Source: Leuctra nigra
Taxonomy: Eukaryota; Arthropoda; Insecta; Plecoptera; Leuctridae
Reading direction: 5' to 3'
Length of the DNA stretch: 64,000 nt
NCBI GenBank assembly: GCA_934045905.1
Contig: OW203761.1
Location: 30,430,964 to 30,494,963, forward strand
Shown: in pieces, positions 3,901-49,000 of the stretch
Position numbering within the stretch: the stretch's first letter is position 1
Layout of the letters: every line of letters starts with the position of its first letter
Position numbers and translations under genes: made by a program
The notes under the pieces: model-generated
Databases searched by the model: none
The model's input: only the letters and a program-made list of their open reading frames with translations
What the model was told of the DNA's origin: nothing

Positions 3901-6900
3901 ATCAACGCGTTACTCAGATTCATTGGTTAAAATTTAAAGAAATATCTCCTGATAGGCTGAAAAATGAAAACGGTCTTCGATAATTCTGATCAAACTCATA
4001 TTTTGCATGATCATTAAGACCAATATTGTCTCTTATTTTACAAAATTTCATCCCAATCAGTTAAGAACGTATGAAGTTATTTACATTTTTAATATCTGTC
4101 AGTAATGAAGTATCGAAATGAATGTTTTCCAGTGCCAATTGAAAATTGATTCTGATTTGCTTTATGAACCAGGTGCTTAGATGCTATTTTAAAGTTTCGA
4201 TGAAAAGCATACACTTTTAAGTTGATATCATAATCAATTCCATATGGATGTATATGTTTTCTGTGCGTTGTGTACGCATTTCCGGTTCGAGAATTTGGAC
4301 GTACCCGTGCTCGCTCATCAACGCGTTACACTGAGCGTTTTCCTAGTAGAATGTACCTACCTACCCACCCTAAACCTACACACTACATTCAGAGGAGTGT
4401 GGATGTCCAGTTAACAAGGTGTGTGCGTGTGGTGGGGCTACACAGGGCGCCAGCAGAAAGTAACATTTATGGGTCAATTCACGTAACTGGGAAAACTTTT
4501 CAAAAAGAGTTTTATTTAGGTATTTAAGTATTTTTTTATTTTTTTTCATTTAAAGACGTTTTTAAAGATTGTTGGAAAATACATTTTTTTGGAGCTATTA
4601 TTAATAGGTACCTACTCTTGAATTTACAGCACTTTTATATCAAAAAATTACACTTTTCTAAGTCAATATATATTTTTTAAATACTTCCATCTATTTTAGA
4701 TAATGTATAATTATATTTATAATATTCTATACCAAACACCAAATTTATTTTGAAAAAAAAATGTTTTTTATTTTTTTATTTTATTTTTATTTTACTTTTT
4801 TTTTTATTGATTTAATGTCTTATTCCATGAGTTAACAATATGTTTCAGATGAATAACCTGTCATAGCATTTATTTTTCTAACTTTTTACTGTCCAAAATT
4901 TGGAAGCGACACGCGAGTTACCAATGAGCGATACACGAGTTACCGATATATTTGTTAATAATATCTTGGCCCCCCCTAATAGGTGTCAGCCTCTCAACTA
5001 AAAAATTATAAAATGTGGTCCTCATAGGGTCAAAATTTAGTTTTAAAAGGGCTTAAACAAAAAATCTCCCTACGGGGATTTGAGCAGAGTTGCTCAAATC
5101 ACTGGAATCAAGGTTGATCAAAAACACAATATTTTGGAAAACAATGCCATTAAAGTACCCTCCAAAAACACAATTTTGCTTGAATTTCTAGGATTTTCCC
5201 ATAAAAATTTCTTTTTAATATGCCTCAAAATTTCTCTATAACATGTATGACCTTAAGAGAATATTTTCTCGGGGGCTTCGCCCCCGAACCTCCTTCCATA
5301 TCGATTTATATTTTTATGTAGGTGTAGGAAAAAAGTAGGAAGATTACACGATATGGACACGGCGAAGAGGCGACCGAGTCCGTTATAGATTTCATATGTG
5401 TGGGGAATGAGTTACGGAGATTCTTGGAGGATGTTGAGGTTATCCCTTCAGTGGCTCTAGATAGCGACCATAGACTTCTAGTGGGAAAGTTTAACTTCAA
5501 AAAAGATAGACCAACCAAGAAGAGAAGCAAAAAGAATGGCAGAATAAGAGTGTGGAAGCTGCAACACGGTACAGTACAACAAGAGTTTAGAGAGAAGATA
5601 GCTAGTAAAGAGAGAAGAGGAGAGGTTGGACTGGTGGAAGTGGAATGGCAAGCATTTAAGAAGGTATTTGTTGACTGTGCAGAGGAAGTCTGTGGGCGAT
5701 CAAGTGGGAAAAGCAAGAAGAAGGAAACACCATGGTGGAATGAAATAGTCCGAGAAGCAGTGCATCAGAAGAGAACCGCCTGGCAGACGTACGAGGCCGA
5801 TAGATCTACCCTCAACAAGGCCGAATACCGAAGGTGGAAAATACGAGTAAGAGAGACAGTAGAAGAAGAAAAGAAGAAGTCCATGGAAGAACTTGCTGGT
5901 AAACTAGAAACGGATTTTGAAGGCAATAAAAAGATGCTTTATGGCATAATAAAGGAAAAGAGGACAAGAAAAGTTGGACAGGCATGCATGGTGGATGCTT
6001 GCGGAGGATTGATCAATGACCCAGTAGAAGTACAGGCACTGTGGAAAGAGTACTTCAAGGAACTACTGAATGTTGATGGAGTGGCACTACCAGAAAGTAG
6101 TAGAATACTACAGAGTGAGAACGAGGAAGAGGAGGAGTGTGCTTTGAGAGAGGGAGAAGTGGAGAAAGCGCTAAACGAGATGAAGAATGGTCGATCACCC
6201 GGAATAGATGAGATAACAGTGGAGATGGTAAGAGCTGCTGGGGAAATTGGAAAAAGATGGTTGTTTCGAGTAATGAGTGCGGCATGGAAACAGAGGACCA
6301 TACCGGACGATTGGAGAAAGGGAGTGATTGTACCGATCTACAAAAAGGGTGACAGGAAGAAGTGCAGCAACTACAGGGGAATTACTTTGATGTGTCAGTG
6401 TGCCAAAGTATTCGAAAAAGTGGTGGAATTTAGACTGAAAGAAGTAGTAGAGGAAAAGCTCAGGGAGGAACAATATGGGTTCAGGCCAGGTAGATCAACC
6501 ATTGATCCAATATTCACTATCCGACAAGTCATGGAGAGAAAGTGGGAGAGTGGAGAAAAACTGTACATGGTTTTTCTAGACTTTTATTATTAATCCTTTA
6601 TTTGTAACGGGCAAGCCCACAAGTACAAATATAATAAAAACACATATTACATACAAAATTGCACATAGTCATAGGAATACATAAAAAGAACATAGGGAAA
6701 AGGCCTACGATCGCCTACCAAGGAAGAAAGTATGGGAATGTCTGAAGCGGAAGGGGGTGGGATTGGGTCTGATTGAGAGAATCAAGAGCACATATGAGAA
6801 GAACGAGAGCTGTGTACAAACAGTGGAGGGGAAGTCAGGATGGTTTGAGGTGAAGGAAGGACTTCGACAGGGCAGCGTTCTTTCCCCGACACTATTTGTC

Positions 6901-9302
6901 ATTGTCATGGATGAGCTGCTGAGAAAAGTAGAACCAAGCGAAGACCAGGAGACGAATACACTGGTATATGCAGATGATATCGTAGTGTGGGGAGGAACCA
7001 GCGAATGTGTTCAAGAAAAGATTGATAGATGGAGCCAGATGACTGAAGAATACGGTATGCGAATAAGTCAGGAAAAGAGTGAGACACTAGTAGTGGAGAG
7101 GAAGGCAACAAGAAATGTGAAGATCAGGCTACGGGGCTTGGAACTGGCGGAGAGAGGAGAGTTTAAGTATCTGGGGAGCTGGCTAACTAAGGATGGAAAA
7201 ATAGGAAGAGAGATAACATCAAGAGTACAACAGGCTTACACATTTTTCCAGTTAGTCAGGAAACTTCTTTGGAATGAGCAGTTCCCCCAGAAATGCAAGA
7301 TACTCCTTTTCAAAAGCTATTTCCTGCCAATACTCACCTATGGTTCCGTAACGTGGGCGATTGGAGGAAAGGAGGAGAGCCAGTTGCAGGCAGCAGAAAT
7401 GAAATTTTTACGAAGCATACAAGGAGTAACTAAGATGGACAAGATCAGGAGTGAAAAGATTAGAGGAGACTTGAAGGTAGAGAGGTTGGCATTTAAAATG
7501 GGGAGAGAGCGGCTACGGTGGTTTGGCCACATGAAGAGAATGCAGAGTGAGAGAATACCGCGTCGGGAGTTCGAAGCTGCGAGAAGTGATAAAAGGAGAG
7601 TTGGAAGACCGAGGGAAAAGTGGAGAGAGCTGGTAGCAGAAGATGTACAAGAGAGACTGGAGAAGTGGGAAGAAGTGGAAGAAGGAAGGTGGTGGGAAGA
7701 CAGGAAGAAGTGGAAAAAACTGGTAGAGAAGAAGAACGAAGAGGAAGAGCCAAGCCTGGCCAGCTAGCTTAGGAGTCCGGGCCCTAGTAATGGTGGCTTC
7801 GCCACCCCCCGACCCAACTCTTGGAACCGGGAGGAAGATTATTATTATTATGTAGGTAGTGAAAAAATCAAGTTTTGGGAACAAAATGCACCTTAAAACG
7901 TCTCAAATTCATTTTGAAGTGCCCAAAATACTAAAAACGCTCTGCCGGGCCAGGTTGTGGGGCATGCCCCCCTCACCTTATTGCAGTGAAAAGGTGTGTA
8001 AAATTCAAAAAAAATTAATTTGTAAAGAAACTGCTCCTCAGAACGTCTCAAAATTGATTTCAAAGTGTCGAAAAACCAAAAAACGCCCTGCGGGGCAAGG
8101 TGGGGGGCGCCCCCCCACATTCCCCATAACCCATGGCAATTTCCTTTCTTTGGTCTTTCCCCCTTGTCATTATTCCTTCCGGCTACCATGTTGGCCCCCC
8201 CTAATGATTTCTCCTGCGCACGCCTATGCGTGAATGACCCTTATAGTTATAGTTATGTGTCATTTGAAACAGTCATTGGGCATTTTAGAATAAGTTAAAG
8301 CAAACCTCCTTATGATATCATAACTTGGAGTTATGACGTGATAACTGTTTCGAGAATAGACGCCCTAGTCTACATTAGAATTCTGCAGAAAAAAATATTT
8401 TACGTTTCCAACAATTTCCATGGCAAATTTCCATTTCGCATTGAAATTTTCAATCAACTGCATCTGTAACTTCAGTTCACACCCTATTCCCTAATGTGTA
8501 GTGTAGGTACCTAGCTAGGTGTCCTGTGTACCTAAAGAAAGAAAGAACACCAGAGACTTAAAGTTTGGAAAGAGACAATGTTTTTCTGATGGCCTCATGG
8601 GTGTTGAGTAAGTCTTCTCTAATTGTCCTAGTAGGTAGGTAGGTAGGTAGGTAGGTAGGTAGGTAACCTACCATCAATTTTCAAACATTCACTTTGCAAA
8701 TTATAGAATCTCATGGTAATGTACGTAGCGTTGTAGTATCGTAGCATCAGGTGTAGGTAGGTAGGTAGTAGATACATAATAAAAATAATAATTTACTTTT
8801 TCACCTTGTACCTAATAAATTAGGTAGGTACCTACTTACCGCAAGCTGCTTTCTCAGATCGGCGATAATTGCTTCATTTTCCAATATCTGCTTCTTGAGA
8901 GCGTTAATCTCAGCATCGGACCCACCTCCTTTCTCGCATTGAGCCAATTTCTTTTTAAGTTCTGCCAGCTGTCCCTCCTGTATGGCTTGCAGTATACTAA
9001 GCAGAACTGGCAAAGGAACATACTGGCCCGATGAACTAACCTGAAATATGAACAATTTTGTACCTAGATTATTGACGCTAAGCATTAACAGCAGTATCTT
9101 TTGGTGAACATACATGGCCACAACGAGGATATGTAACAAGATCAATAAGATGTTTTCCTCGATCTTCATCATCAAGAGCCCACGCTCTGTTGTCTGTACA
9201 CGAGTCATATCTTTTCATGCGACCTTCACATCTTTTGCCAAGGGGCCGCTTTACTGGTCGGTGTTTGAACACATAGTCTTTTTGATTTATGTAAGATGAC
9301 AT
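448..9302 (-). CDS. Unrecognised coiled-coil protein gene, 3' part beyond window
   Basis: Four exons join in phase 0: 9302-9114, 9040-8840, 2884-2732 and 936-448, giving 344 residues before the model leaves the window through a donor (GAG|GTTAAC) at 448. Exon 1 starts with MSSYINQKDYVFKH and encodes a basic, non-coiled head (residues 1-63). From about residue 85 on, the chain is almost entirely charged heptad-type helix rich in E, K, L, D and R (for example ERDALLKKLADAKAERDAL), so a long coiled coil is likely. There is no signal peptide or membrane segment. All introns are phase 0, and the first is only 73 bp. The second (about 6 kb) has been filled by LINE-A and repeats. It lies head to head with Reps. 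I do not recognise the family; a cytoskeletal, centrosomal or ciliary scaffold would fit but is inference. The exons are convincing, the identity is not known. Confidence 0.75.
1408..1504. repeat. Perfect 41-bp inverted repeat with tRNA B-box-like loop
   Basis: The arms 1408-1448 and 1464-1504 are exact reverse complements, separated by a 15-nt loop (CTCGAACCCACGACC). On the minus strand the loop and stem tips read GGGTTCGAGTTCC, close to a pol III B box, so the hairpin may have formed by inverted duplication of a tRNA-derived SINE fragment. Confidence 0.85.
1514..1979. mobile_element. TIR element (TAGGTTTGTTYG family), copy 1
   Basis: The termini TAGGTTTGTTTGCCGGACTG and, reversed, TAGGTTTGTTCGTCGGATTG are imperfect inverted repeats. 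The interior is rich in GCTCGAGCAG/GTTCGGAACA motifs. The same family recurs at 15348-16448. It has no coding capacity, so it is a MITE-like element; superfamily unknown. Confidence 0.6.
2270..2440. repeat. Cluster of TTCGCACCGACACCGAAC-type repeats
   Basis: The motif TTCRCACCGACACCGAA and its complement ATTCGGTGTGAATA occur several times within 170 bp in both orientations. It looks like the tip of a palindromic mobile element, but I could not define its ends. Confidence 0.4.
2732..2884 (-). CDS. Coiled-coil gene exon 3
   Basis: Fifty-one codons, phase 0 at both ends, between acceptor CTAG and donor TTG|GTGTGT, a weaker donor. The product (NKDKEMSEMDAAMRAAK...) is continuous heptad-like helix matching exons 2 and 4 in style. 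Confidence 0.7.
3021..4352 (+). mobile_element. Helitron/HINE-like element, copy A (two tails)
   Basis: It starts TTGAGCGAGCGAAGCGAGCG, then has a T-rich tract, a body with repeated ATTGGTTNAAATTT motifs, and 3' ends carrying GTGCTCGCTCATCAACGCGTT. The second tail ends GAGCGTTTTCCTAG followed by T. A first, partial tail at about 3890-3925 indicates a composite of two copies. Family logic is given in the findings. Confidence 0.6.
4467..4925. repeat. AT-rich sequence with TCACGTAACTGGG/GAGTTACC motifs
   Basis: GGGTCAATTCACGTAACTG at the left and two CGAGTTACC copies at the right resemble the GGTAACTCATGTTAC element at 11731-12606. It is probably a decayed relative; boundaries are uncertain. 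Confidence 0.35.
5330..7855 (+). pseudogene. LINE-A: 5'-truncated, interrupted non-LTR retrotransposon ORF2
   Basis: The reading frame begins inside an apurinic endonuclease domain (GEEATESVIDFICVGNEL, then SDHRLL near 5460). Reverse transcriptase motifs follow: GRSPGIDEI, IPIYKKGD-type block, YGFRPGRST and FLDF up to 6584. After a 112-bp insertion it resumes in another frame with EKAYDRLP, the GLRQGSVLSP block, and the catalytic LVYADD at 6961-6978. The C-terminal part ends [11 protein letters not shown]...[10 protein letters not shown]. The 3' UTR has a GGTGGC/GCCACC hairpin and an (ATT)n tail. The 5' end is missing, so the copy is dead. The clade is not settled; endonuclease plus a GRPR-W tail suggests an RTE/Daphne-like group. 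It lies inside an intron of the minus-strand coiled-coil gene, in antisense. Confidence 0.9.
6585..6696 (-). mobile_element. 112-bp 5'-truncated LINE 3' end inside LINE-A
   Basis: It separates codons FLDF and EKAYDR of LINE-A, which would read straight through without it. Read on the minus strand it ends with a GGGCTTGCCC mini-hairpin, AATAAAGGATT and an ATTATTA-like tail, typical of a LINE 3' terminus. No clear target-site duplication is visible. Confidence 0.6.
7862..8235. repeat. CCCTGCGGGGC repeat family, copy 1
   Basis: Two tandem units contain CGTCTCAAAATTGATTTC, AACGCCCTGCGGGGC and a G-run/C-run hairpin. The same units occur at 49195-49455, and a tail fragment (GGCAGAAATCCTG) occurs near 36576. 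Class unknown. Confidence 0.5.
8631..8664. repeat. (GTAG)n microsatellite
   Basis: Eight to nine tandem GTAG units. Shorter tracts of the same tetramer are scattered through the window. Confidence 0.95.
8840..9040 (-). CDS. Coiled-coil gene exon 2
   Basis: Sixty-seven codons, phase 0 at both ends, between acceptor TTTCAG and donor GCG|GTAAGT. It encodes VSSSGQYVPLPV and then a helical stretch with a GGGSD break. A good consensus donor and codon-like composition support it. Confidence 0.75.
9114..9302 (-). CDS. Coiled-coil gene exon 1
   Basis: Sixty-three codons starting at the ATG at 9302 and ending CGH before donor CAT|GTATGT. The 73-bp intron that follows ends in a clean pyrimidine-AG acceptor before 9040. 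Opening the frame further runs quickly to a stop, which supports the splice. Confidence 0.65.
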
Positions 9303-22100: not shown

Positions 22101-25100
22101 ACTTCTCCAAAGAAACTGATTGGCCAGCGCAGTGAGGGAGACGTTCTGTCCTTGGCCAGTCGGCAACCGGGTTTTGCAGACTTCACTCAGTTCTCTCAAG
22201 AGGAGGAAGAAGAGTGTGTGACAGACGCGCCTCCTCCCAGACGTCACGGAGCATTTGAAGTTTACCGAAAGCCAGTTCAGAGTGAGTACAGCTCATCTAA
22301 AGATCATAATTCAAATGGGAATGGGGATACTCAAGACTTAAAAATAGGTACCTACTGTCCTATTGACATCGACTTTCATCACCAGTTAAATGGCAATGAG
22401 TCAATGACACTTCTCTAATCTAAGTCCGATGATTGTTCTTGTAGGAGACTTTTCGCTGACTATGGTAATATTCATTATAATATTTTAGTAATAGATCCTA
22501 TTGGAACCAACCACCACACTCTGACATTACGGTGTCTCAAAAAAAAACTCAAAAAAGTCATTTGAAAAACATAAGTAGTACCTACCCACATTTTTAAAAA
22601 TTATGAATTTATTTTGAAAATTTTAATTTGGTAGGTTATGCATGAAATTTACTAGGAAAATGCTCAGTGTAACGCGTTGATGAGCGAGCACGGGTACGTG
22701 CAAATTCTCGAATCGGAAATGCGTACACAACGCACAGAAAACATATACATCCATATTGAACTGTAACATGATCCACTCAATCAACATAAAAGTATATGAG
22801 AAAATAAGTGACACGACTGACTTCTGGCGGATTCTTTGGTACTATCCATATGGGGGATAATGGAGGATATAAAGGGTTTTTAATTTTATTTATGTAAATA
22901 AATGATATAAAATTTGTTTTAGTTTTTTGTTATGGCTGAAAAAGTAATAATAATAATAATAATAATGGTTTTTATTAGCAACTTAGGATTATACACAATA
23001 AGTAGGTAATTGCACTATCCGGTGGTTACTATACATTTTCACAATCTGATGCATACATATACATGAATCTGATACAGGAAATTATTTTTGCTCATCTGGA
23101 AATATATTTTTGGCAAGTTCGTTGGATGGCAGGCTGTTCCATAGCCTAGTCCCTCTGCCAAGTAGTGAGTGGCGTCCTATGTTTGTACGGTAGAACTTCA
23201 AAAATAGTTTATGTCCATTATCACCCCGAACCACTGCCTTGCTTTGGTGAGTTTCCACGTATTTGGCCAGGTCCCGCCAGGCTTCGAGTCCACATACAGC
23301 CTTGTAGATGTAGCGTAGACTGACTCTGGAGCGGCGCACTTCGAGGCTATCCCACTTCAGTTTTCTGACCAGCTTGGTTATGCTTACGGCAGGACACTTC
23401 TTCTTCTTATCCCACCTTCGATGGCATCCGGTGACATGTCTGGCCGCTTTCTTCTGGACTCTCTCGATGGCGTTGATGAGCCCTGCAGAGTGTGGGTCCC
23501 AAATTCCACTGCAGTATTCGACTAATGGTCGAATTAGGCAAACATATGCATGTTGTTTAGTCTTAGCGTGACTGCCCTTTAAGTTACGCATTACGAAATG
23601 TAAAGATCTTAGGGCTTTCGTGGTTACTCCCGCTATGTGCTTGGACCAGCTTAGGTTCTTAGTTAGCGTTACCCCTAGATATTTACAACTGTCTGATTTA
23701 ATGAGTTGCTGGTTGTTCATTGTGTAAGTGGTTGGGACTGGGGATCTTCTCCTGGTGAAGCTAACAATAGTGGTTTTGGCAGCGTTTAGCCTCATTCCGT
23801 TCCCGTTTACCCATTCTTGGATGTTATCCAGGTCAGCTTGGATGCGTTCTTGATCCTCCGGCACTTGGATTGTGGAGAAAATTATGAGATCGTCAGCAAA
23901 CAATTTCATGGGGGATAATATGACCTTGGCCACGTCATTTATGAAGCCTAAGAACAGTGTCGGGCCTAATACCGTCCCTTGCGGTACACCCGAGGTGATG
24001 GCCACTGGGGTAGAGTCTGATGAGCCTATCCGCACAACTTGAGTTCTGTTGGTAAGGAATGCACTGATCCAGCTGACAACCCTTCGGTCTAGTCCCATTC
24101 CTGCAAACTTGTCCATCAGACGACTGTGGGGCACAACATCAAAGGCCTTCGCAAAGTCGACGAGTATTGCATCGACTTGCTTGTTGGCATCAAGACATTC
24201 GGCCAGTTCCTGAGTGAAGCCGGACAGGGAAGACTCGCATGAATATCCTCTTCGGAACCCATGCTGATTGTCGTAGAGCCAATTGCTAGCTCTCCATATT
24301 GAGTGGATATAATCAACAATGAGCCTCTCGAAAATTTTACAAGTAATCGATGTATTGCTTATGGGCCTATAATTTGACGGATCACTTCTGGGGCCACTCT
24401 TAAATATAGGATGTATTGTAGCCATACTCCACTCTGCTGGGATTTGACTGACTTGTAGAGAGATGTCAAATATGACTTTCAAATAAGGGACGACCGCGAG
24501 CCGGGATACCTTCAACATCTGTGACGTAACGCCATCAGGCCCTGCCCCAACATTAAACTTAATATGTTTCAACGCTTTATCTATAGATGCATTACTCACT
24601 GTGAAAGTCGGATTCGGTGGTTGAGTGTCATTGGTGCTGGGGCTTCGATTTGAGATGTGCCATTTAGGGTCTTCATTGAATACCTTTTGGTAGGTGGAGT
24701 TCAGTAGATTTGCTTTGTCCAGTTCCGTAGTTGCAGTAGCTTGCGGAGTTTCTAACGTAGGAATGGTGTTATAATTTCCTTTACGACTGTTAACATGTTT
24801 ATAAAACTGACTCCAATTTCCTGGACAATCTATATTTAATAGTTTCTCCATGTGTTTGTTCAGGGCAGAGTTCTTCGCTGTGTTGAGTTCTGAGAGTAGG
24901 GATTTGAATTCCACGGGCTGGATCTTCCTCTTCGGATACGCTTTCCGACATTTTATTTTCAACCTCTTGACTTCCTTGTTATAAAATATTGGATCGCAGT
25001 TCTTCTTTAAAGTACGTTGTGGGATGAACTCCAACCGTGCCTGATCCATGAGCGCCTTGAAGCTATTCCAGAGAGTGTTTATGCCACCTGTTTGAGCAGA

Positions 25101-28100
25101 CCACCTCGGAAACTCCTGGGATAAGAATTCTGTTATTCCCGGGACATTGGCTTTTTTGTACGACCAGACGACTCTTTCTATTTGATTGGGTGGGAGAGTT
25201 CGGGTTGTCCGAACCTTTAGCGTAATCAGCTTGTGGTCGCTGATTCCCGTTTCGACCGCACTGGACAACCAGATTTCCGGCGGCGAGATAAGAAACACGT
25301 CAAGGATATTGTCTGGCGCATGAGTTGGCTCCTTGATCACTTGTATCATGTCATGATTGTTTAGGATATCATTTACAGCCTCTTGGATCGCTGAGTTGGA
25401 TGTTTCCCCATCTGGTTCCCAAGATACTTTAGGAAGGTTCAAGTCACCTCCAATGACGATAGGGTGGGATGTCAGCCCGTCTCGTTGTAGGTTAGCTAGA
25501 TGAGTTCCCAATACATCAAGGAACTGTAATGCGTCACAGGAGTGGGGTCTGTATGCTCCCATCACATACATTTTCCCTGGATTGCAATCAATTTCTGTAC
25601 ACATTATTTCTTGAGTCGAGTCGGTGAAATGAAGTGTGCTGGAAAAATTATTCCTTACACCTATGAATACTCCACCACCTCGTTTTCCTTCCCTATCCAA
25701 TCTGTATATCTGGAAATCTGTTGGGAATATCTCATTATTACAAATATCTTCAGTGAGCCACGATTCCGTACCTATAATTACATCTGGGTCGTGCACTTCT
25801 ACTGCAGTATGGAATTCATTGACTTTATTGGAGATGCTTCGGCAGTTGACATGAAGTAATTTTATGTGGCTTAGGTGCTTGGCTTTACTGTTAGTCAGTC
25901 TAATTTTCTTTCGATTGTGGTCTGGTGAAAAACCTCAACCTGTGGTGACTGGCTTCTAAAGTCATACCTCTTGTACGCTATTCCGCTGGGCCAGAATGCT
26001 GGATTGTACATTGTTTCCTTTAGTGCGTAGACGGCTGCAACTCTAAAGCACTTGTATTCCAGAGTCCCTCTTGTTGGTGTGACGTCTTCGACGCGGAACT
26101 CGGTGTTTGGAGCTTTGAACTGGAGATACTTCATAAGGTCTTCTGTGGTAACATCTAGTTTGACTTTGGATATATGAAGCCATATCCGTTTAACTTTATC
26201 CACGGCTGAGAACTTATGGTCGATCACGGTTGCGCTGCCTTGTTGTGGTGAGGCAAGTTTCCTTGTCACAGGTATGCCGTGTGATGCCTTTTTTGATGTG
26301 TGATCCGTCTCAATCAATGAAGATGATGATTGTAACTTCTGCTTCTTGGCTGTCTTCTTTGATGTTACTAGCTGGAAGCCATGAGAATCAGTGTTAAAAG
26401 AAGTTGATGCCATAACATTTTTTTGAACTTGGTTAATACTGGGTCTCTTCGAATGAGTTTTCTTATTCTCATGTTTAAGTAGATGACACACTGTAATCGA
26501 AATGTTGGAGCCCAGAATTGACTCTTGTAAAAACAATTTTACGTCGTCCCACTCAAGACCATCTCTATGACAGCCTAAACGGTTCATTGCGAGCTGCGTG
26601 ATGTTGAATTTTTTACAATGATCGATCATTTTTGATATGCTTAACTTGAGGTTTTCCAGAAGAGGCTTGTCCGAGTAATTCTCTTTAGTCACCAGATGGT
26701 ATATGAATCTGGTTTCAGTCTGCAGAGTGGCACAGTCTCCAACCGCTGGCTTTGAGTCTGCGAGCGATTTGACACTTGGGTGTAGCTTCTTCATTTGTGC
26801 TGCCAGCCCCCTACTCATGTGAAAGTCACTAGAGACACAGAGAGCAAATGAAGTCGACTCTGGTTGGAGGAATATGTTCGTGTCAGACTCTGTGAGACAG
26901 GGGACATTAATCATAGGTGACACACCATTGTTACTGTTGGCTTGCCGGTTGATTACAGCAGATGAAGCTGCGTGTTGTTGGCTCAGTTCTTGAGTATCTT
27001 CTTTGTTGATGGTCAGCCTTAGTCCTTTCGCTGAGTCATCATTATTTGTTTGTCTTGCTTCTTTATTTGACTTCAGGATAAGTGATGTTTTTGGTTTTTG
27101 AGGTCTATTTTTATTTTTTCCTACAACTTCTGGATTTGCTGTTCCAGCTGGCTGAGTCACTTGAAGCTGCCCTGTCGTAGCCAAACCTGTCGAGGTAGAC
27201 ACTTGGGCATCTACTGGATTGACAGAGCATGTATGCTTGTTGTTTTCAGCAGTATGAACGTATGATAATTCACTTTGGGGATCATTCGAAGCTCGAGTCA
27301 GATTTGGAGGACAGAGATTACGAATAAAATTGTTCATCTCGGCGATTTCAACTTTCAGCTGATAAACCTCAGACCTTGTGTCATTTACTATTTTGAGAAC
27401 ACTTTCCAGTAGAGCTGTAGAGATATTCTTCTCATTGGCTGTCAAGTCACATTGAAATTCGGGGTCTAAGCCCAGGTCATTGTCCAGGGAGGGTGTTGTA
27501 ACCTCACTTTCTTGCCTACATTTATTGCACTTCCATTTGGGTAGATCTTTTCCCATAAACATGGATTCAAATGCCTTTTGGGTATATTTTAAACACTTGA
27601 GGTGGTGCCAACGAGCACATGCACCACCACACTGCACAGAATATTGTTTATTAGTACATTTTTCTGAACAGAGTCCACAAAGGTGGAGCATAGCGTCCGC
27701 CATCTTTAAATTCTTGTAAAGAATTGTAACTAAATATAAATTTCATTTGTTTCTCCTTTTTCACTGCCCTATGGAAACAAGAACATCAAAATAAAAAAGT
27801 GCATTTAAAAAGTTTCCTGCCATAAGTGGCTCCATCACGTATTGCTTATTTGTTCGATTATGCTTTTAATCGAAACTTGAAAATAGCATCTAAGCACCCT
27901 GGAACATATAGCAAATCAGATTCAATTCAATTAGCACTGGAAAACATTCGTTTCGATATGACAGCTATTAAAAATGTCAATAATTTCATACGTTCTTGAC
28001 TGATTGGGATGAAAATTTTTAAAATAAGAGACAATGTTGGTCTTAATGACCATGCAAAATTTGAGTTTGATCAGATTTATCGAAGACCATTTTCATTTTT

Positions 28101-39133: not shown

Positions 39134-40062
39134 ATGGCTCTTCGCGCTCTGACGTTGTTGTTCCTGCTAGTCTGCGCGATAGCACGGGTTCGAACCTCGG
39201 ACAGAAAGTGTGAACCAATCAGAGTTGAATTGTGTCGGAACCTAGGCTATAATCACACGGGTATGCCTAATTTGGTAGGCCATGAAATCCAAGGCGACGC
39301 GGATTTCACGTTACAAACATTCTCTCCGCTGATCCAGTACGGCTGTTCGGCTCAGCTGCACTTCTTCCTGTGTTCAGTGTACGTGCCCATGTGTACGGAC
39401 AAAGTGGCGTTGCCTATCGGCCCGTGCCGTGGCCTCTGCGAGTCCGTGCGCGCACGATGTTACCCCGTGCTGCAGGGGTTCGGCTTCCCTTGGCCCGCCG
39501 CCCTCAACTGCTCCAAGTTCCCTCAGGACAACAACCACGAGCACATGTGCATGGAGGGTCCCGGCGAAGTGCACCTCCAACCCGAGCAGCCCATCCGCGT
39601 GCAGCTGTCCCCGCAGCTGGTGCAGCCGCCTTGCGCCCGGTACGCACGTCCCAGCTCGTACGTGTACGTCAACCGCTCGGGACGCTGCGCCCCTCTGTGC
39701 GACGCCGATATCTTGTTCGGGCGCAGTGACAAGACGCTGGCGGAAGTCTGGCTCACCGTCTGGGCGGGCTTGTGCTTCCTGTCCACGCTGATGGCGGTGT
39801 TGACGTTCCTAGTCGACTCCGGCGGCGGACAGGCGAGGTTCCGCTATCCTGAACGACCGCTCGCCTTCCTGGCACTCTGCTACAACCTGGCGAGTGTAGG
39901 TTGGGGCGTGAGAGCCGCCGCCGGGAGGGTGGCGGTGGCATGTACCGCCGACCCGCAGAACCCCGGCACTCTGCTCCTCTCGCAAGACGGCCTAGGCAAT
40001 GCCAACTGCGCCGTCGTCTTCATCCTCCTCTACTATTTCGGCACCGCCGCGGCCGCTGTTTG
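39134..40062 (+). CDS. fz4: fz4 exon 1
   Basis: It encodes the signal peptide, the CRD, TM1, TM2 and the start of TM3, ending GTAAAAVW. Donor TTTG|GTGAGT splits a Trp codon (phase 2). Confidence 0.95.
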
Positions 40063-43000
40063 GTGAGTAATCTTTGAAATGGCAAATGCATCAACTCATC
40101 AATTGACCTCACTTGCCCGCCACTGCGTACGAGCAGCGAGTGAGGGCATGCAGGTGTCTGTTGTCCTGTGGGTGGGGGAGGTCTCGCAGGCGCCATCCCA
40201 CGCCTCGCCGTTCTGGCCGTCGAAAAGGCGTGGTCGCGATTTGTGGCGACTGCTTTATGACATTCTCTAACGAACTGGTTGTTGGAATCATTAACGTGGT
40301 GGTGTATTTCTCACTTGCCGTGTCGAACTCATGTGTACATATTATCATCTACAAACACTCTGAACGAGTTTTTAGTTGTCTTTGTTTTACTCTCGACCAC
40401 ATCTCTGGCTGGCCGGTTGCTAAGTGGCTCGGCAACACTGCGCGGACCCCCGGCCGTCCGACCCGGGGGTGTACAAACAGTGTTCTTCGTGTCGACGTTT
40501 TCGTACACCAACGAGCACCCAAGTTTAATGTAGACGTAATACACTATCTAATAACGTTGTATTCATTCCTAGTCAAATCCATGAGTAGATCCCGTGCTAT
40601 GCCCACAGAAAATGATTATATTTCTGGAGATGGATATTTGGTCACCCCTGATATCCACGCTTCTTCTCTCAACTCCGCCCCATGTTTGACTTGCTTGGCC
40701 AGACATGTGATTATCACCGAATAATAACCATCCTGCGCTCTGCCTCACCTTGCTCGTAGAGAGGAGAGTCCCATGTGCCTTCTCACTCGCTCCATCCCGC
40801 AGCCACATGTGTGCGCGACATGGAGCCAAGGCGTCCCGCGTTCATCACGGAACACCCATCTTTCACAGGAACAAGCCAGAATACAACAAACAAGTTGAGA
40901 TGGTCTTCCTTGAATGTGCACAAATTCCGCAATTACGTACTTTCTAATAAGTTTTGGATTGTGTCCACATCCATGCCATTTCATCGCCTTCAGATGCGAT
41001 TGAACATGATTGAACAACTTACATTACATTCTCAAACGTGTACAGCAGAATTTTAGAATTCCCGATCGTCTCCACCAGAAGTTGTTAATTATGCAAAGGG
41101 TTTTTATAGCTTTGTCATTGCATCTACAACATAAGAAAACGAAACTTAAAATGGAATCTTATTTGCTTGGATTCGGACGTAGCGACCACGAAGTGACTAA
41201 CAATGCAGTTGAACATGGATCGGGTACCGAGAACCTCCAACGCAAGCAGACTGCGTCGTGATTGGAAATCACGAGCGAAACAGTAGAAATGATATTCAAA
41301 CCTAGGACGGAATAGTATGTTCGTAATTGGTTAGCGTTAGATCGAGTTGAAGCAATCCAAATTGCGACGATAATTCAATCCCAATTTCATGTGTAGTGCT
41401 GGTAGGAAAGGCGAGCAAGAAAGACGTAGTGATTTGCCAGACTGGGAATCAGAGTTTGGTTACACAATGGTGCCACATGTTTGTCTACACAAGAGTGTTA
41501 TCTTCTTGCGGAAGCTAGCATAATATTGACTCGAACTCCTAACAACACAGAGAAGAAGCCAGGCCAGGTGAACACAGTCATGATTTCACAAACCAAACAG
41601 CCGAACATAGCATTCACCACTGTGCCAGGATTTATAATCTCCACCATTCTTTAGTCGTTCAGGCTTGGCTGGTGTAAAAGCGCTGTCGACCATTTACAAG
41701 AACCAAATGGATAATAGGAATTTGGAGTAAAATTGAGGGAAAATGGAGACTTTTCAAAACTCAATACGCATTCATTGAGGACCCTTACTAAGAAAATCAC
41801 TTTCTAATGCACAATAATATTCATTGTCCAATTTGTCCCTCAGCTGTGTTTAATTAATATGTAATGTAACTGTAATGTGCTTATATTTCGATTTGATAAT
41901 GTATTGCTAACTGATTACACGACATCCGTTATGTTATTGAAGCAATGACAGAGGCTCTGAGGAATCATTATGCGGTTAGCTCCGAGTGAGGATCGTGGCG
42001 ACTTCGAAATCAGACGGGATGACTTGAGATTGGCAATCAATCTCTGATTGACATTATGTACTCGCCTCGTGGTAGCTTCTTGGATCTCTATGATGGTGGC
42101 AGAGTTGAGTGATGTGGTAAAATAGGATTGCTTCTTGGTTGTGAGTGACAAGGTAATTTATTTAGTTAGAGCCGGTTGTCAGACAGAGTGACAGAGTATT
42201 TTCTTTTCTAGTGAACCTTGTTTTTTTGCTCTTCGCCTCGAATGCCAGGCGTTTATGAGAGGGCAACCCAGGAGTGTACAAAAGTCACTACGTAGTATAC
42301 ATCTATACGTATATAAACCTATATAGTTTGTTTTCACACCCTTGATTGTCGTGTAAACAAAGACGGACCTACAGCTTGTCTCGGGAAACAAACACATTAA
42401 CTGCAGCAGCACACATAGCTAGCTTCTGTTGGTTCGGTTGGCTAGCTTGTCTTACAATGTACACCATTCTCTCAAGCAGGCCTCTGATTGGCTCTGATGT
42501 GTGAAGTAAAAATAAAATAACGCGTTGTTACTGCTTCTCAAACAACCCCAGCTAGAGACAACAAACAAGGCAGACAGGATGTTCTAGAGAGCGAGGTGTC
42601 CCAACTCTCCAGCAAGCTCCTCGCCTTCATTTCATCGGCTAGTATTTATTGAATTCTGTGCTCTTGGAAACAATCAGCTAGGGATATATGTAAATGTTCT
42701 GAACCAGGCCCGGCTGGGGCAGGTAGATGCAGGTTCCCCATTGAGAGAGTGATTTGTGGTGCCGCCCAGGTGTCCAGGAGAAATGCCTTGTTAATCTTGA
42801 GACCTCCGCGGACACTGCACGCAGCAATCGCATGGAACTCAAACATCAGTTGATGGAGTTGAGAGTAGCTTACGTAGGTACAAACAGGAGATGGTTTATT
42901 GTTGATTGTTACACGAATAATTTTGTTGGTCATGAACAGAGCCGTTTGTCATGACAAACAACATCTTCACCTTCAGATGATTTCAATACACTCACTTGAA

Positions 43001-46000
43001 TGTAAATTCAGACTGTCCTTAGTACGGCATAACAATAGTACCGAGTGTGTACAGAAAAATGTAATATTTTACTCCTGTATCAACGAGTTAAATTTAAATT
43101 CTTTACCGTAGAGGTAGAAGGGGGGAAGTCGATATTTTCTATTTGCGTTGTGTAATACTCTAAATAGGATTGAACTGATGTCAACAAATAGAGTTAAATT
43201 GAATTGTAGATTGGATGAAGGCAGAATTACTGGTTTATGAGCTCATGTCAAGAATCATTGAAATGGACTTCCACTGAGATACGGAATTATTTTTGATATT
43301 CGCCAAAAAAATGGTCATATGTTGGGAGGGGCATCTTAGAAAATTCGGAGTTCTGTAGAATTAGGGGAATTAGGTACCTACCTACTTTTGTTAAGGGTAA
43401 AAGTTATTACGATTCCAAGTTGTACGATGCGATGTTGTTGCCGCGGTGTGTGGACATACCTGCAGGTTGAACGAGCAGTGGAAGAAAAACAGCGATGTTT
43501 ATCCGGTTGATTGATGGAGCAAGCGAGTTGGAGTCGATCCATCGAACCTCTGCAGCATCCGAGGAGGACCACGACCACGAACACGAAGATGAGGTTCAAA
43601 TGTGTTGTTCTAGACAAACAAAAGAAGTCACGTAGCGCTCGCTACTCTTGTCACATTCAGACCTCGGTATGCCATTACTTCAAGACGATCCCAGCAGGGT
43701 CATCAGTCCCTTTGAATATCGGCCTTGTTTTTTACTCTCCTTATCACTATTTCATATTGTAAAATCTAAACTCGAGTATTGCTATTGCATACCACTAGAG
43801 AAGGGGGATTTCTTGGGTTATCGTCCACTAGTAATTGACGACGAGAAATGCCCTAATAAATGAAGCCTTTTACTTCTCGGGTTACAGATAATATCAGAAT
43901 TGTGCTGTCAATGATAAATTATTTTATTAAAAAAAAAACCAAATTAAACATTGAAGAAAGAATGTGGTCTGGCCTACTTGCTGTGACGCGATCGTTTTAA
44001 ATAATTATTCTTTTTAATTTAAAAATAAACTTTCCGTTCACAATGTGCAGGATAGGGAATGATTTAGTGCTTGTGTTAAAATAAACACACAGTGCCTAAT
44101 GAAAAAATATCACGATTTATAGATAAATCTTTCAGCTCCGGTCTTCGCGTTTCGCCACATTTTATGATCATTCGAAATTATCTATCGGGTTTATTGTTCG
44201 AAAGCCAAGCAAATCATGAAGCTAATTAAATTAGCATACAAGTAAGCGCTGGCCAATGAGAGACGGGCCACGTGACATTACGGTTTGTCTTTCATGTGTG
44301 CTGATTCAATCAGGCATTCTGCTACCAGGACACAAGAAGTCGTTAGAGCTCCGCTTATTACTGTGTGAAATCCACAGCGATGGGATGTTTATACGTTTAC
44401 GGCCATATTATTATTCTTGACAAGATTTTTATGTCTAGAATTATCTTAATCTGAACGGCTGGAATAGGGGCCGGCTGCTCTAGAAGGACAAGAAGTCAAT
44501 CAACTTAATTGCCAAACGAAATAATGTCCCCATTTGATTATCAAAATAATGTGAGAGAATTTTAAATTTTAGAAGCTACACTACAGCTGGTTTCTGAAAT
44601 ATTCGAATATTTCTGATCAATGTGGAAAGTTGTAAATGGTGTCCATGCCATTTACGCCCGATTTACACGGTCACATTTAATTTATTGAACAACTTCTGTG
44701 TCACAGTCTTTGGCACAGTCCTTGTCACATTTCTTGAAGTAAATTAGAACATGTTTTAAGTTCGGTGACAGAAAGTTGTTTTATGTAAATGCAAGATTGT
44801 GTGAAAACTGGGAATGTGACACAGAAGTTGTTCAAGAAATTGTACCGTGTATAAATCGGGTCTGTTTTCACAACATGAAAATACGTTTGATTAAACTTAA
44901 AACAATGATTGTAAACGGAGAACCAACAACAACAATAATAAAATAATCTGAATAATAAAATAAAATAATGGCAACATATTTACAGAAAAATATGCAGATA
45001 ATACCTACCTACCTAGGTACTGTCATTCGAAACTGAAAAATAAATAATTTGTGATTGTCAATGAGTTGTAGGGGTTTGTGGATTTTTAATGTATGCATAT
45101 TTTTTATGTATTGCAATATTCGTATTATGTGACTTTATTATTGTTATGACAAATGTACTGAGTGTATGCTGGATTTGTTATACAAGTAAGCTTGTTAACT
45201 GCAATAAATCAATCAAATCAATTTCTAAGAGGACATATTCTTGAGCAGTCCATGTGGTTGATGCTCTTGCCACGTTCACAGTGGCGTGGTCACATGTGCT
45301 CGGTGATGTTCTCAGTGGCGTAGGTCTCATATGTGCAGCAGTGACAATGTGTTCTTGTGTCCTCCAGGTGGGTGGTACTGACGGTGTCGTGGTTCCTAGC
45401 TGCGGCGTTGCGATGGAGCCACGAGCACATTCTACAACACTCCTCCCTCTTCCATCTGGCGGGCTGGGGACTCCCCGCGGCTCAAACTATCGCCATCTTG
45501 GTTCTTCGTGACGTCGACGCCGACGAGCTTACAGGTGAGTGACAGAAGTTGTTAATAGAACCAGCGATCATTGGGATAGTTCAAGCTATTGTTTAATTCC
45601 TCACCGGTTTTTTTCTCAATCAATTGGTCTATTTTATTTGCATCCCGCAAAAGGTTTTGCGCCCCACCTATAGGCACCAGCACAAGCAGCGGTATTATCG
45701 TCGCTACTTATGCTGGCTGGTGCTTGCGGTGGGGTGCAAAATCTTTTGCGGGATGTGAATAAAATAGACCTATTGAGAGAGAAAACGCCGAGGATTACTC
45801 TGTCGTGCTACAGATATTTAAGCTAAGCAACGTCATCGTCGAAAGTGGGCATCACCCTGGGCTGCAAACTGCGTATGGAACCCACGTATGGACCAAATTG
45901 TCAATATGCGCATGTACAGAACGATCACGTGATTCATCGAGGGTTCCAGTGACGGATTGCAACAAATGGGATGCCACCTCCAGGGGCGTATAAAACTGTT

Positions 46001-49000
46001 TGGTACCCCTAGGCTCATACACATGAGGCGCCCCCCCCCCCCCCCCCCCCAAAAAAAAGGAAACAATTGCACCCTGTCTATTTCTGTTCTATTTTCTCTT
46101 AAAATCACTGAACGACGCTGTAATCACAGAAACCATTTAAATTGGGATGTACCCGCAAGAATGAAGGCGTTAGACGCCCCGCATGTCTTTTTTTAGAATT
46201 TATACACTTTTTGATTGAACCTGGGGCGAGGAAATAGCGTATTTTTCAATCTAAATCATTGTAATATATCTCAAGTTAGGAACCCTATACCTCTTGCGTG
46301 GGGGGGGGGGGGGGATCTCCATACCACCCAATTATATTAAAAATACTACATTAATTATTGTCTTGACACAAGTTATACCACATTTTCATAATACTTCGTG
46401 TTGGTAGTTTGTTTATGATTTCATAATTTTTACCATAAGTTGGCATTTATTTGACGCCGCGGCGCCCCCTGGAAGATGGCGCCCCAAGGCTTTAGCCTGG
46501 GTAGCCTAATGGGTAATATGCCCCTGGCCAACACTCAACCCGTATTTTCATGGTCGATACGTTTCTTATCGAACACGGCAGTATAATGTCATTTGTAGTG
46601 GGCGAAGTGTACATTTCCCATGGCACATCCAGCACCCACCATTATAACCGAGATACATCTATTATCTAGCTTCGTAGACATGGTAACAGAACAGTGAGCA
46701 GATTGCCGGCAGTGACGTATTAATTTACTTTTAACAGAAAATTAACGATTTCCAATGATATTGAACAGAACAGATAAATCAGTCTTCTGTGTCCTGGTAA
46801 GGGGCTGTGCATAAAGGACGTCACGCTAAAAGTGGGATATTTTGACACCCCCCCCCCCTCCCCCCTGTCACGCTGTGTCACACTTTTCGAGACCCCCCCC
46901 CTAAAAGGACGTCACAAATTTGTCTCTACCCCCCCTTAAGTAGAATATTTTTTACTGTAAAATGTATCCAAATGTATCGTTTTTAGCGAAATTTCCGGTC
47001 CCGACATATCAACTGAAATTTAAAATGTTTGAAAATATCTATATCAAAACGTGACGTTCTACTGCCTCCAGTACCCCCCCTCCCCCCTGTCACACTGTGT
47101 CCTATACTGGTGCACCCCCCCTCCCCCCCTGAAGCGTGACGTCCTTTATGCACAGCCCCTAAGCGTTTCAGATCCCGCCAACACGCTTTTGCCAGGAATT
47201 GCGTCGCAGCTTGAGGTCACACATTGTTATCTCTTCGACACTAAGAACAGGAGCCGAAACTATCAGACAATAGTCCTCATTAAATCTCAGTTAATTCCAC
47301 AGCACACACCTCTCTCAGTACAGAGTGTACTTAGCAGTTGAATTACAGCGTCGAGCGTGTGAATGCATTGCCGATCGCTAGCCAAGTCAACAACAGTCTT
47401 TCGACGCCGACTGTGGGTAGCTTAGGTGGCATATTACAGACACAGCCAAGCGATGCTTTGTACATAACATAGTCAAAGGCAAAGAGTCAACTTGGCGATA
47501 AGAAAAAGAACTCAAAGGAATTGGGCTGCCAGACGCCCTTGTCATGTTTACCTGCTTTGCTTTGATGATTGCGTTTAGAAATTGGGAAATAACATTCCTA
47601 TTTCACTCTGGTTGTTCTAAATTTACTGATTTTTCTCCTGTCCTGCTTCTGTTCTGGCTTCCGTCGCAAGTCCAGTCCGCTCTGCTAATATATTCCTTGG
47701 ACTGGAATGTCTTCGTGCCGGTCTCTTTGTCTTGTCTTCTGCTATGCAATGTCCGAGCCGTGTTTGCATGCTATTCTCTCAGATAAATATACGTCGTTGT
47801 CGATGCAGCTGCAATGTTGCAATGTGGACCTGCGACATGCTAAGTAGCCAACAGTGGCTATCGCTTGAGTTGAGTGTTAACGGGTACAAATTTGTCCACA
47901 AATGAACATTCCAAGCAATCAAAAGCCGTGCATGTGGTAATGCGATGCTATGTATCGTCGATACTTAGAGAATGGGAATGTCGGGTTCAGAAATTATCTA
48001 CTTCATGACTTCGATTTGAGGAGTATCTCTCGTCAATACACCGATTTTTATTTCTAAAAATTATATCATCCATATACATCCAGATAATTTCTCAAAGACT
48101 GATTATGGACCGATGTCATTTTAGACATTTTGTAACAACTCTTCGAATACGTTTACCTCTCTCTCAGCAAAATCTTGGAAATTTGTGATTCTAGGACGGT
48201 AATCTAAATTGTAACTAACTTCCATTATATTATTAAATATTCAGAAAAAAAATCCGTTGTGGCGAATGTGTTTCTAAATGACGTATGTAGCCTAAGGTCA
48301 ATTGATTCAATATGTAACGTGTAACAATTGATTCGGTTGCATACGTTCCATTATTGGTAATATTGGAGTTAATACGTTTTATATAAAAATATAATAGGTA
48401 TAATGGATCGCCTGTCAGTGATGATTACTGGATCAAACCGGCATTTTGGCATCACAGTACTAAGTAGTTCGGCGTTGAGAAATCCTTCCCAATGGATGAT
48501 GGATGCAGTGTCGGGATCTATGCCAATAGAGATAGGTCTGTGTTTACCTGCCCGGTATTGATATTGCTTTCTGTTCAACTCATGTTGCACACATGTTCCT
48601 GTCTTATCAGTGTTAGTCTTCTTGTCGAGATAGCACAGCGATTGATAACATTGATAACGGCTCGCTGCTACCGAAATACGCTTTTATTGAGGAGGGGTGA
48701 CCAAAAGTGTTGATAGAAGTGAAGGGGTGAACGCAAGCAATCATTTCATGTTACTGCACTGCCATTTCGAATTGCAGCTCCCAACAGAGATTCCAACAAT
48801 CGTATAGATTATGTTATGGCGCTAACAATTTACCCGTACCCAGCTTGGGCTTCCAGGGGGCATGTATTGGGGGAGGGGGGGGGGGGGGCAAAACACATAC
48901 TTATAACATTAGAAATATTCAATGATTGAGTTGAGCGCCTTAAAACTAAGTAAAAACAAAAGTAAATTCCTGTCTGACTCTGGATTGTAAAACCGGCCCA

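Follow-up and report, generated by a model that had tools for sequence, protein, structure and literature searches.

The window analysed here is a stretch of 64,000 nucleotides from the genome of the plecopteran insect Leuctra nigra. Its minus strand carries a transposable element that extends approximately from 22945 to 27707, the points where homology to independent copies begins and ends. The first open reading frame of the element (ORF1, 25895..27703, minus strand, coordinates that the original prediction had given correctly) encodes 602 amino acids. These are arranged as a PHD finger, a linker, a macrodomain of the TARG1 type, and a C-terminal RRM-like region. A second open frame (ORF2, 23082..25934, minus strand) encodes an endonuclease and a reverse transcriptase with a FADD motif. 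Pfam finds Exo_endo_phos_2 (E 6.9e-9) and RVT_1 (E 5.4e-34) in it, and its best match among solved structures is human L1 ORF2p. Because an endonuclease and a reverse transcriptase follow ORF1 on the same strand, the element is a LINE.

Both frames in the window are open, over 602 and 904 amino acids, which rules out a dead copy. Near-identical intact copies of ORF1 are found elsewhere in the genome (L029, L031, and L032); the full-length ORF1 copies besides that of the window number three, on C1, C11, and C13, and show 99.88-99.94% DNA identity over 3.3 kb. The 3' end of the LINE lies in an (ATT)n tail, and such tails were seen in both copies whose 3' ends were examined. No clear or convincing target-site duplication was found in the three copies examined for one.

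ORF2 and the end of ORF1 overlap and are read in different frames. The first GTG of ORF2 is at 25796, with no ATG before that GTG, and no ATG stands ahead of the endonuclease motif anywhere in 23082-25934 (minus strand). Given this overlap and the missing ATG, ORF2 may be made by frameshift, by reinitiation, or from a non-ATG start.

The 5' end of the LINE lies only about 4 bp before the ATG of ORF1. This start codon sits in AAAGATGGCGGA (window 27697-27707, minus strand), a context that we take to resemble the TISU/YY1 motif. That motif is used by mRNAs that have very short 5' leaders. Families D, F, G, I, and J begin in a CAAGATGGCGG-like context (CAAGATGGCCG in D, AAAATGGCGGC in F), and family E has one 33 nucleotides downstream; none was found in family H, or in the frames of family B (L038) and L042. 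The loci named for these start contexts, beside the window, are L071, L077, L078, L048, L050, L041, and L043. The arrangement resembles a leaderless LINE, in which promoter and start codon might lie within one motif.

The window has other inhabitants, of course. A Frizzled-4-like receptor gene lies at 39134-51730 (plus strand), its first part matching Frizzled-4 at E 2e-101, and the open frame at 51224-51730 (plus strand) resembles, by eye, a frizzled C-terminus. At 5400-7767 (plus strand) lie fragments of a further LINE-like reverse transcriptase, with 24% identity to ORF2 over 150 residues.

The macrodomain occupies residues 275-406 of ORF1 (26486..26881, minus strand). It aligns to human TARG1 over 132 residues without a single gap, with 37% identity and E 7e-25, a score that rules out chance or composition as the cause of the match. 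The next macrodomain among solved structures (5m31, DarG) reaches E 0.0098. An AlphaFold2 model of the domain, made from an alignment with 43 relatives, has a pLDDT of 93.8 and a pTM of 0.88, and its top match in Foldseek is 4j5q (E 9.6e-17, TM 0.91). By structure prediction the TARG1 fold is present, and TARG1 is the best solved structure. The TARG1/OARD1-like macrodomain proposed in the original prediction is confirmed, and the comparison against TARG1 by profile and structure recovers it. The Pfam Macro profile itself stays below its cut-off on the whole of ORF1 (E 0.062) and gives E 0.0081 on the macrodomain piece alone; with scores as weak as these, a plain Pfam scan would miss the domain.

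Two trivial origins for this match can be set aside. A processed TARG1 pseudogene beside a LINE is ruled out by the single frame that the macrodomain shares with the PHD finger and the C-terminal region, found in four near-identical places including the window. A host gene mistaken for a transposon is ruled out as well, as the host TARG1 gene lies elsewhere (on C8) and is split by an intron. Judged by eye from open frames, that gene (L128, G000:C8:32877400-32880400) consists of two exons, and the intron between them, about 2.2 kb long, interrupts the domain. The retroelement copies of the macrodomain have no such intron. Capture from spliced RNA would explain this.

The PHD finger (residues 9-62; 27518..27679, minus strand) was also borne out. 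The N-terminus scanned alone matches PF00628 above its cut-off (E 8e-6), the whole-protein scan gives E 3.9e-4, below cut-off, and the PHD structures of Pygopus match at E 9e-5. The RRM-like C-terminus (about residues 505-586; 25946..26191, minus strand) fared less well. The region is conserved between families, and a single-sequence model gives it a beta-alpha-beta-beta arrangement; that model, however, is of low confidence (mean pLDDT 57) and matched no fold at an E of 0.001 or below. The stretch at 25898-26266 (minus strand), in this same C-terminal region, also has a sub-threshold match to Pfam NEPRO_N (E 2e-4), and part of NEPRO may share the fold of this region.

Retroelements that have gained macro domains have precedent. 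Basta et al. reportedly described, in 2009, fish epsilon-like endogenous retroviruses with macro-domain ORFs, and these viruses are prior art for the general idea. They are, however, vertebrate elements in which the macro-domain proteins are encoded in additional ORFs, and the passage on them in PMC4977317 leaves the class of macrodomain unstated. Other parts of the architecture are familiar from LINEs. The type IIIB ORF1s of the CR1/L2 lineage are modular, with an N-terminal PHD finger and an RRM-like C-terminus (Metcalfe and Casane, 2014; PMC4120745); the main text of that survey does not contain the term "macro". The TRAS LINEs of Lepidoptera are described as having captured and kept a foreign enzymatic domain, but theirs is an RNA-virus helicase, and it lies within ORF2 (PMC5563155). 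Elsewhere, the "macro" of PMC5434184 is the gene MACROD2, and PMC8195603 treats macro domains in bacterial conflict systems and retrotransposon fusions of other genes. Thus, the original supposition that no LINE with a TARG1-type domain had been described agrees with what was found in the open-licence literature and in the term check of the main text of PMC4120745.

Among the proteins themselves, the closest relative is human TARG1 (OARD1, C6orf130), an ALC1-like hydrolase that resembles the element's domain throughout and has the same Lys84/Asp125 pair. The element's version differs in its place in ORF1, where it is flanked by a PHD finger and an RRM-like end, and in a loop that reads GCHRD, not GCGLD. 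The bacterial ALC1-like hydrolases DarG and SCO6735 are only 18% and 10% identical to it; the former is described as lacking the catalytic Asp, the latter as lacking both catalytic residues (PMC9411070). The full-length ORF1 brought up 5940 candidates in a set of 5.8 billion proteins, none at E 1e-3, and the macrodomain piece alone brought up 11, none at E 1e-5. No relatives of ORF1 were found in viral contigs or in prokaryote genome contigs. These sets are assumed to be poor in animal sequence, and such absences therefore say little about other animals.

The 536 Mb genome that contains the window offers a richer picture. A search with ORF1 gave at least 115 matches (73 of 576 candidates scored). 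At least seven of the matching places are at least 95% identical, and four of these, counting the window, are full length without stops; many of the remaining matches stand at 26-51% identity. Human TARG1 gave at least 150 matches (150 of 383 candidates scored), including an exon of the host gene. The profile PF01661 gave at least 76 (150 of 222 candidates scored), fewer than TARG1 itself, as would be expected from the weak Pfam scores of these domains; the control genomes for this profile were prokaryotes and provide no animal yardstick.

Loci were chosen by eye from the 150 places matching TARG1 so as to cover different lines. Dropping two 3'-end pieces and partial domains under 115 residues reduced 99 loci to 93, and dropping L035 (the same place as L036) and L122 (the host gene) left 91 full-length domains outside the host gene. 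These form 39 clusters at 70% identity; L112 and L127 share a cluster, as do L118 and L126, L109 and L080, and L096 and L124. As the domains were found by similarity, families that have lost the features of the domain would be under-counted.

The two residues on which catalysis by TARG1 depends are K340 (codon 26684..26686, minus strand) and D381 (codon 26561..26563, minus strand), which align to Lys84 and Asp125 of TARG1 with the identical spacing of 41 residues, just as predicted. The lysine is kept in 88 of the 91 retroelement domains and 37 of the 39 clusters, the aspartate in 82 domains and 36 clusters, and both together in 80 domains and 35 clusters. Ranked by conservation over the 39 clusters among 132 columns, Lys84 is fifth and Asp125 seventh (each tied with two others), where the median column scores 0.49. 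The four clusters without an intact pair are those of L096 (Asp to Asn), L074 (Asp deleted), L078 (Lys to Arg), and L116 (both changed); in the L072 cluster, one row has Asn for Lys. Random change at K340 and D381 in related copies, which had been named as evidence that would speak against the original prediction, was looked for and is not what these counts show.

These counts bear directly on the least demanding view of the domain, that it is an inert or structural passenger, captured and then kept as an RNA-binding fold without any ADP-ribose chemistry. TARG1 has been reported at nucleoli and bound to ribosomes (PMC7050489), and in the element's own clade the pocket loops have diverged, as such a view would allow. 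Over 39 clusters, however, Lys84, Thr83, Gly43, and Asp125 exceed almost every other column in conservation, which would hardly be expected of a passenger, and we consider this view very improbable indeed.

Genomic context was examined for 17 of the 39 clusters. The other 22 were fetched as bare domains and are retroelements by inference. At least sixteen other retroelement families in the same genome carry a TARG1-type domain. Fourteen of the 17 are ORF1s of LINEs, followed by an endonuclease or reverse transcriptase, and they come in several plans. PHD-macro-RRM-like is the plan of the window element and, by similarity, of L041; SAP-macro is that of L038, L071, and L077; a macrodomain with a GDSL esterase is found in L079 and L127 (above the Pfam cut-off) and in L125 (below it); and L126 has PHD-macro-GDSL (GDSL below cut-off). 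In five of these loci (L079, L125, L126, L127, and L074, the last with an OSK-like esterase below cut-off) a macrodomain joined to a GDSL/SGNH-type esterase places two captured types of hydrolase in one ORF1.

The remaining three of the 17 clusters are pol genes of the LTR type, labelled so from the order of pol domains in short fetched stretches. Here, the macrodomain lies between protease and reverse transcriptase: at residues 271-403 in L080 (reverse transcriptase 982-1138, RNase H cut at the end of the stretch), 187-318 in L123 (reverse transcriptase 645-807), and 206-337 in L124 (reverse transcriptase 730-889). In all three, Pfam gives the order protease, reverse transcriptase, RNase H within one pol frame, with weak matches for the protease.

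The ORF1 modules around the macrodomain appear to have been swapped between these elements. Compared with family F, the window element is 63% identical in the PHD finger, 71% in the C-terminal region, and 56% in the endonuclease, but only 37% in the macrodomain. Compared with family D, it is 56% identical in the macrodomain and 63% in the endonuclease, but only 35% in the C-terminal region. From these unequal identities, the macrodomain appears to move as a module. In many distant families, it is the best-matched part of ORF1.

Trees are consistent with several histories. In the first tree, the element grouped with human TARG1 and P0044 (support 92/95), but on a very long branch. Trees with more families put the element's clade, now of five families, beside microbial sequences (96/84 and 98/86, with midpoint rooting), while the other retroelement domains group with animal TARG1 genes on a weak backbone. 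The LTR-type domains, three in number, are spread over three subclades that also hold domains of LINEs and animal TARG1 genes. The tree needs only 2 changes between the LTR and LINE labels, and well-supported branches enforce just 1; the LTR-type macrodomains may thus stem from one origin.

The pocket of the window copy is less orthodox than its catalytic pair. Twenty positions are constant in 42-43 of 43 non-redundant relatives; 14 of them are unchanged in the element and six are altered. Four of the six belong to the two ADP-ribose-binding loops: G41S, P118N, G123H, and L124R, in TARG1 numbering (S297, N374, H379, and R380 in the element). The last two fall in the phosphate-binding loop G377-C-H-R-D381 (26561..26575, minus strand; GCGLD in TARG1). 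Thus, the original statement that the residues were "in register" holds for catalysis, but not fully for the ADP-ribose-binding loops. H379 and R380 are derived in the element's clade, where the position of Gly123 is H, Y, or F and the loop follows the pattern GC[HYF]RD. Since representatives of all five families keep this pattern, it is an inherited, conserved feature and not decay; the K340/D381 pair stays in all five families as well. Outside the retroelements, all 145 TARG1-like sequences that were sampled have Gly at position 123; they form a redundant set of 120 database proteins, 24 viral pieces, and the human protein. Among the 39 retroelement clusters this Gly is kept in 30 and replaced in nine, which include all five of the element's clade. 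The loop of family A is GCHRD; that of family F (L041) is the canonical GCGLD.

Replacement at this position may matter. In SCO6735, exchanging Gly128 for Glu lowers activity (PMC9411070), and Gly128 would correspond to Gly123 of TARG1, as deduced from the loop and from the equivalence of Ala130 and Asp125 (PMC5087735). Given this cost and the four loop changes, hydrolysis by the window copy is a prediction only.

This opens the way for the main rival to an enzymatic role. In the rival account, the domain of this clade would bind ADP-ribose marks without cleaving them, tethering the ribonucleoprotein (RNP) to PARP-marked chromatin, nicks, or granules. The four pocket changes would fit such a role, as would the activity lost by SCO6735 upon its Gly-to-Glu exchange, the conservation of some clusters that have no Asp or Lys (L096/L124, for example), and the fact that PHD fingers of other proteins are described as reading modified histones (PMC4120745). 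Against it stand the rank of the catalytic pair among the best-kept columns, its retention in all five families of the clade, and the closeness of the domain to TARG1, which is called the sole hydrolytically active ALC1-like member in animals (PMC7050489). On balance, we regard binding without cleavage as unlikely for the element's clade.

The dN/dS of the domain is low in most pairs that can be measured. Within the element's clade (five families, 10 pairs), pN is 0.29-0.41 and pS is 0.70-0.95. Here, dS is saturated in eight of the 10 pairs, which makes omega a bound only; the other two pairs give 0.17 and 0.25. Two further pairs come from clusters with an LTR-type member: L109/L080 (omega 0.16 at dS 0.78) and L096/L100 (omega 0.08 at dS 1.10). 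Among the 15 pairs listed from 36 with dS of 0.1-1.5, four have omega of 0.48-0.68. Two of these four involve the decayed copy L046, and the other two (L105/L127 at 0.48 and L045/L101 at 0.55) have dS above 1.3. Thus, the comparison of dN/dS that had been proposed gave low values in most measurable pairs, but met saturation in the element's own clade.

One cluster deserves separate mention. In the cluster of L124, L096, L100, L104, and L095, Asp125 has become Asn and Gly123 has become Thr, and purifying selection continues nevertheless, with omega of 0.07-0.25 in the listed pairs. Strong purifying selection without the Asp fits a binder better than an enzyme. This domain is perhaps a binder, or a trap for ADP-ribose on lysine. 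As L096/L100 belongs to the Asp-to-Asn cluster, some families may keep a binder.

The host has candidate enzymes that would place ADP-ribose marks. A search of the genome with PF00644 gave 12 matches among 16 candidates, some of which may be exons of one gene. Two of the matches, compared with solved structures, have PARP12 as the best and PARP14 next, with PARP15 and ZAP also among the matches. Four PARP-domain matches lie within 21 kb on C5 (G000:C5:21453650-21474288), and L129, among them, is PARP12-like. TARG1 strips ADP-ribose from Glu and Asp and from phosphorylated nucleic-acid ends; RNA ends are modified by PARP10, PARP11, and PARP15, in a way that TARG1 can reverse (PMC7050489). The same source holds that viral MacroD-type domains most likely counter antiviral PARPs, including PARP12-15, and suggests RNA ADP-ribosylation as a mark on viral or transposon-derived RNA (PMC7050489).

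The pocket itself may speak to the substrate. Arg or Lys occupies TARG1 position 124, which adjoins the catalytic Asp, in 14 of the 39 clusters, a distribution that requires six or more gains or losses on the tree. No database protein among the 120 has either residue there; among the 24 viral pieces, 2 have Arg. At position 42, Arg or Lys is found in 21 of the 39 clusters, compared with 4 of 120 database proteins and 2 of the 22 viral pieces in which this position is occupied. Additional lysines near the active site of SCO6735 favour DNA substrates (PMC9411070). These lysines and the repeated Arg and Lys in both pocket loops suggest a shift of preference towards ADP-ribose on nucleic acid. The family-A domain shows no increase in net charge (+0.8, compared with +4.0 for TARG1), an argument against a general gain in nucleic-acid binding.

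Thus, the reading that we prefer is that the TARG1-type domain of the ORF1 protein removes ADP-ribose, placed by host PARPs, from the RNP, RNA, or DNA ends of the element, as an eraser in counter-defence. We give this a probability of roughly 60%. Host mono-ADP-ribosyltransferases would mark proteins of the particle, RNA, or cDNA ends. The ORF1 protein would bind the RNA of the element and so carry the eraser into the particle; in LTR-type elements, Pol would bring it there. As described for TARG1, Lys340 would attack the ribose and Asp381 would resolve the intermediate. The substrate would be ADP-ribose linked to nucleic acid or to the RNP, as the Arg and Lys gains in the pocket loops suggest, and removal of the mark would help the element to copy itself. 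Counting against this reading are the altered Gly123 in the element's own clade and the four of 39 clusters without the Lys or the Asp.

The original prediction, that the element may erase or read host ADP-ribosylation, stands as to the identity of the domain and its catalytic pair. It had offered PARP marks at nicked target DNA as one example, and this is not favoured. In its narrowest form, this alternative confines the domain to target-primed reverse transcription, where it would strip PARP1-made ADP-ribose off histones or DNA ends. TARG1 does act on nucleic-acid ends and interact with PARP1 (PMC7050489), and a LINE nicks DNA through ORF2, whose endonuclease was found here. LTR-type elements, however, integrate otherwise, and they carry the same domain between protease and reverse transcriptase. 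A function confined to the nick is therefore quite improbable. The presence of one domain in LTR-type pol genes and in LINE ORF1s points instead to a selective need that is common to elements with different integration routes.

Drosophila that lack PARP-1 show significant change in eight mobile elements: five, LINE-like and gypsy-type, go up; three go down, and the authors allow that the effect may be indirect (PMC7712786). SIRT6 silences L1 via mono-ADP-ribosylation of KAP1 (PMC4695847). ZAP/PARP13 restricts L1, but because its zinc-finger domain is said to suffice, this is no evidence for ADP-ribosylation against LINEs (PMC4441479).

A larger picture can be drawn tentatively, at clearly less than even odds: an arms race over ADP-ribosylation within one genome. 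Here, LINEs and LTR-type elements would have captured and exchanged a TARG1 eraser against the host's PARP12/14-like mono-ADP-ribosyltransferases, with the pocket retuned by basic residues towards nucleic-acid ends, and with some families having become non-cleaving binders. If removal of host marks is indeed what the domain does, animal genomes would also use ADP-ribosylation to restrain transposons. The guild of retroelements would supply a ready-made series of domains, some canonical, some altered, and some catalytically broken, for identifying the substrate, and the purpose of nucleic-acid ADP-ribosylation in animals would become directly testable.
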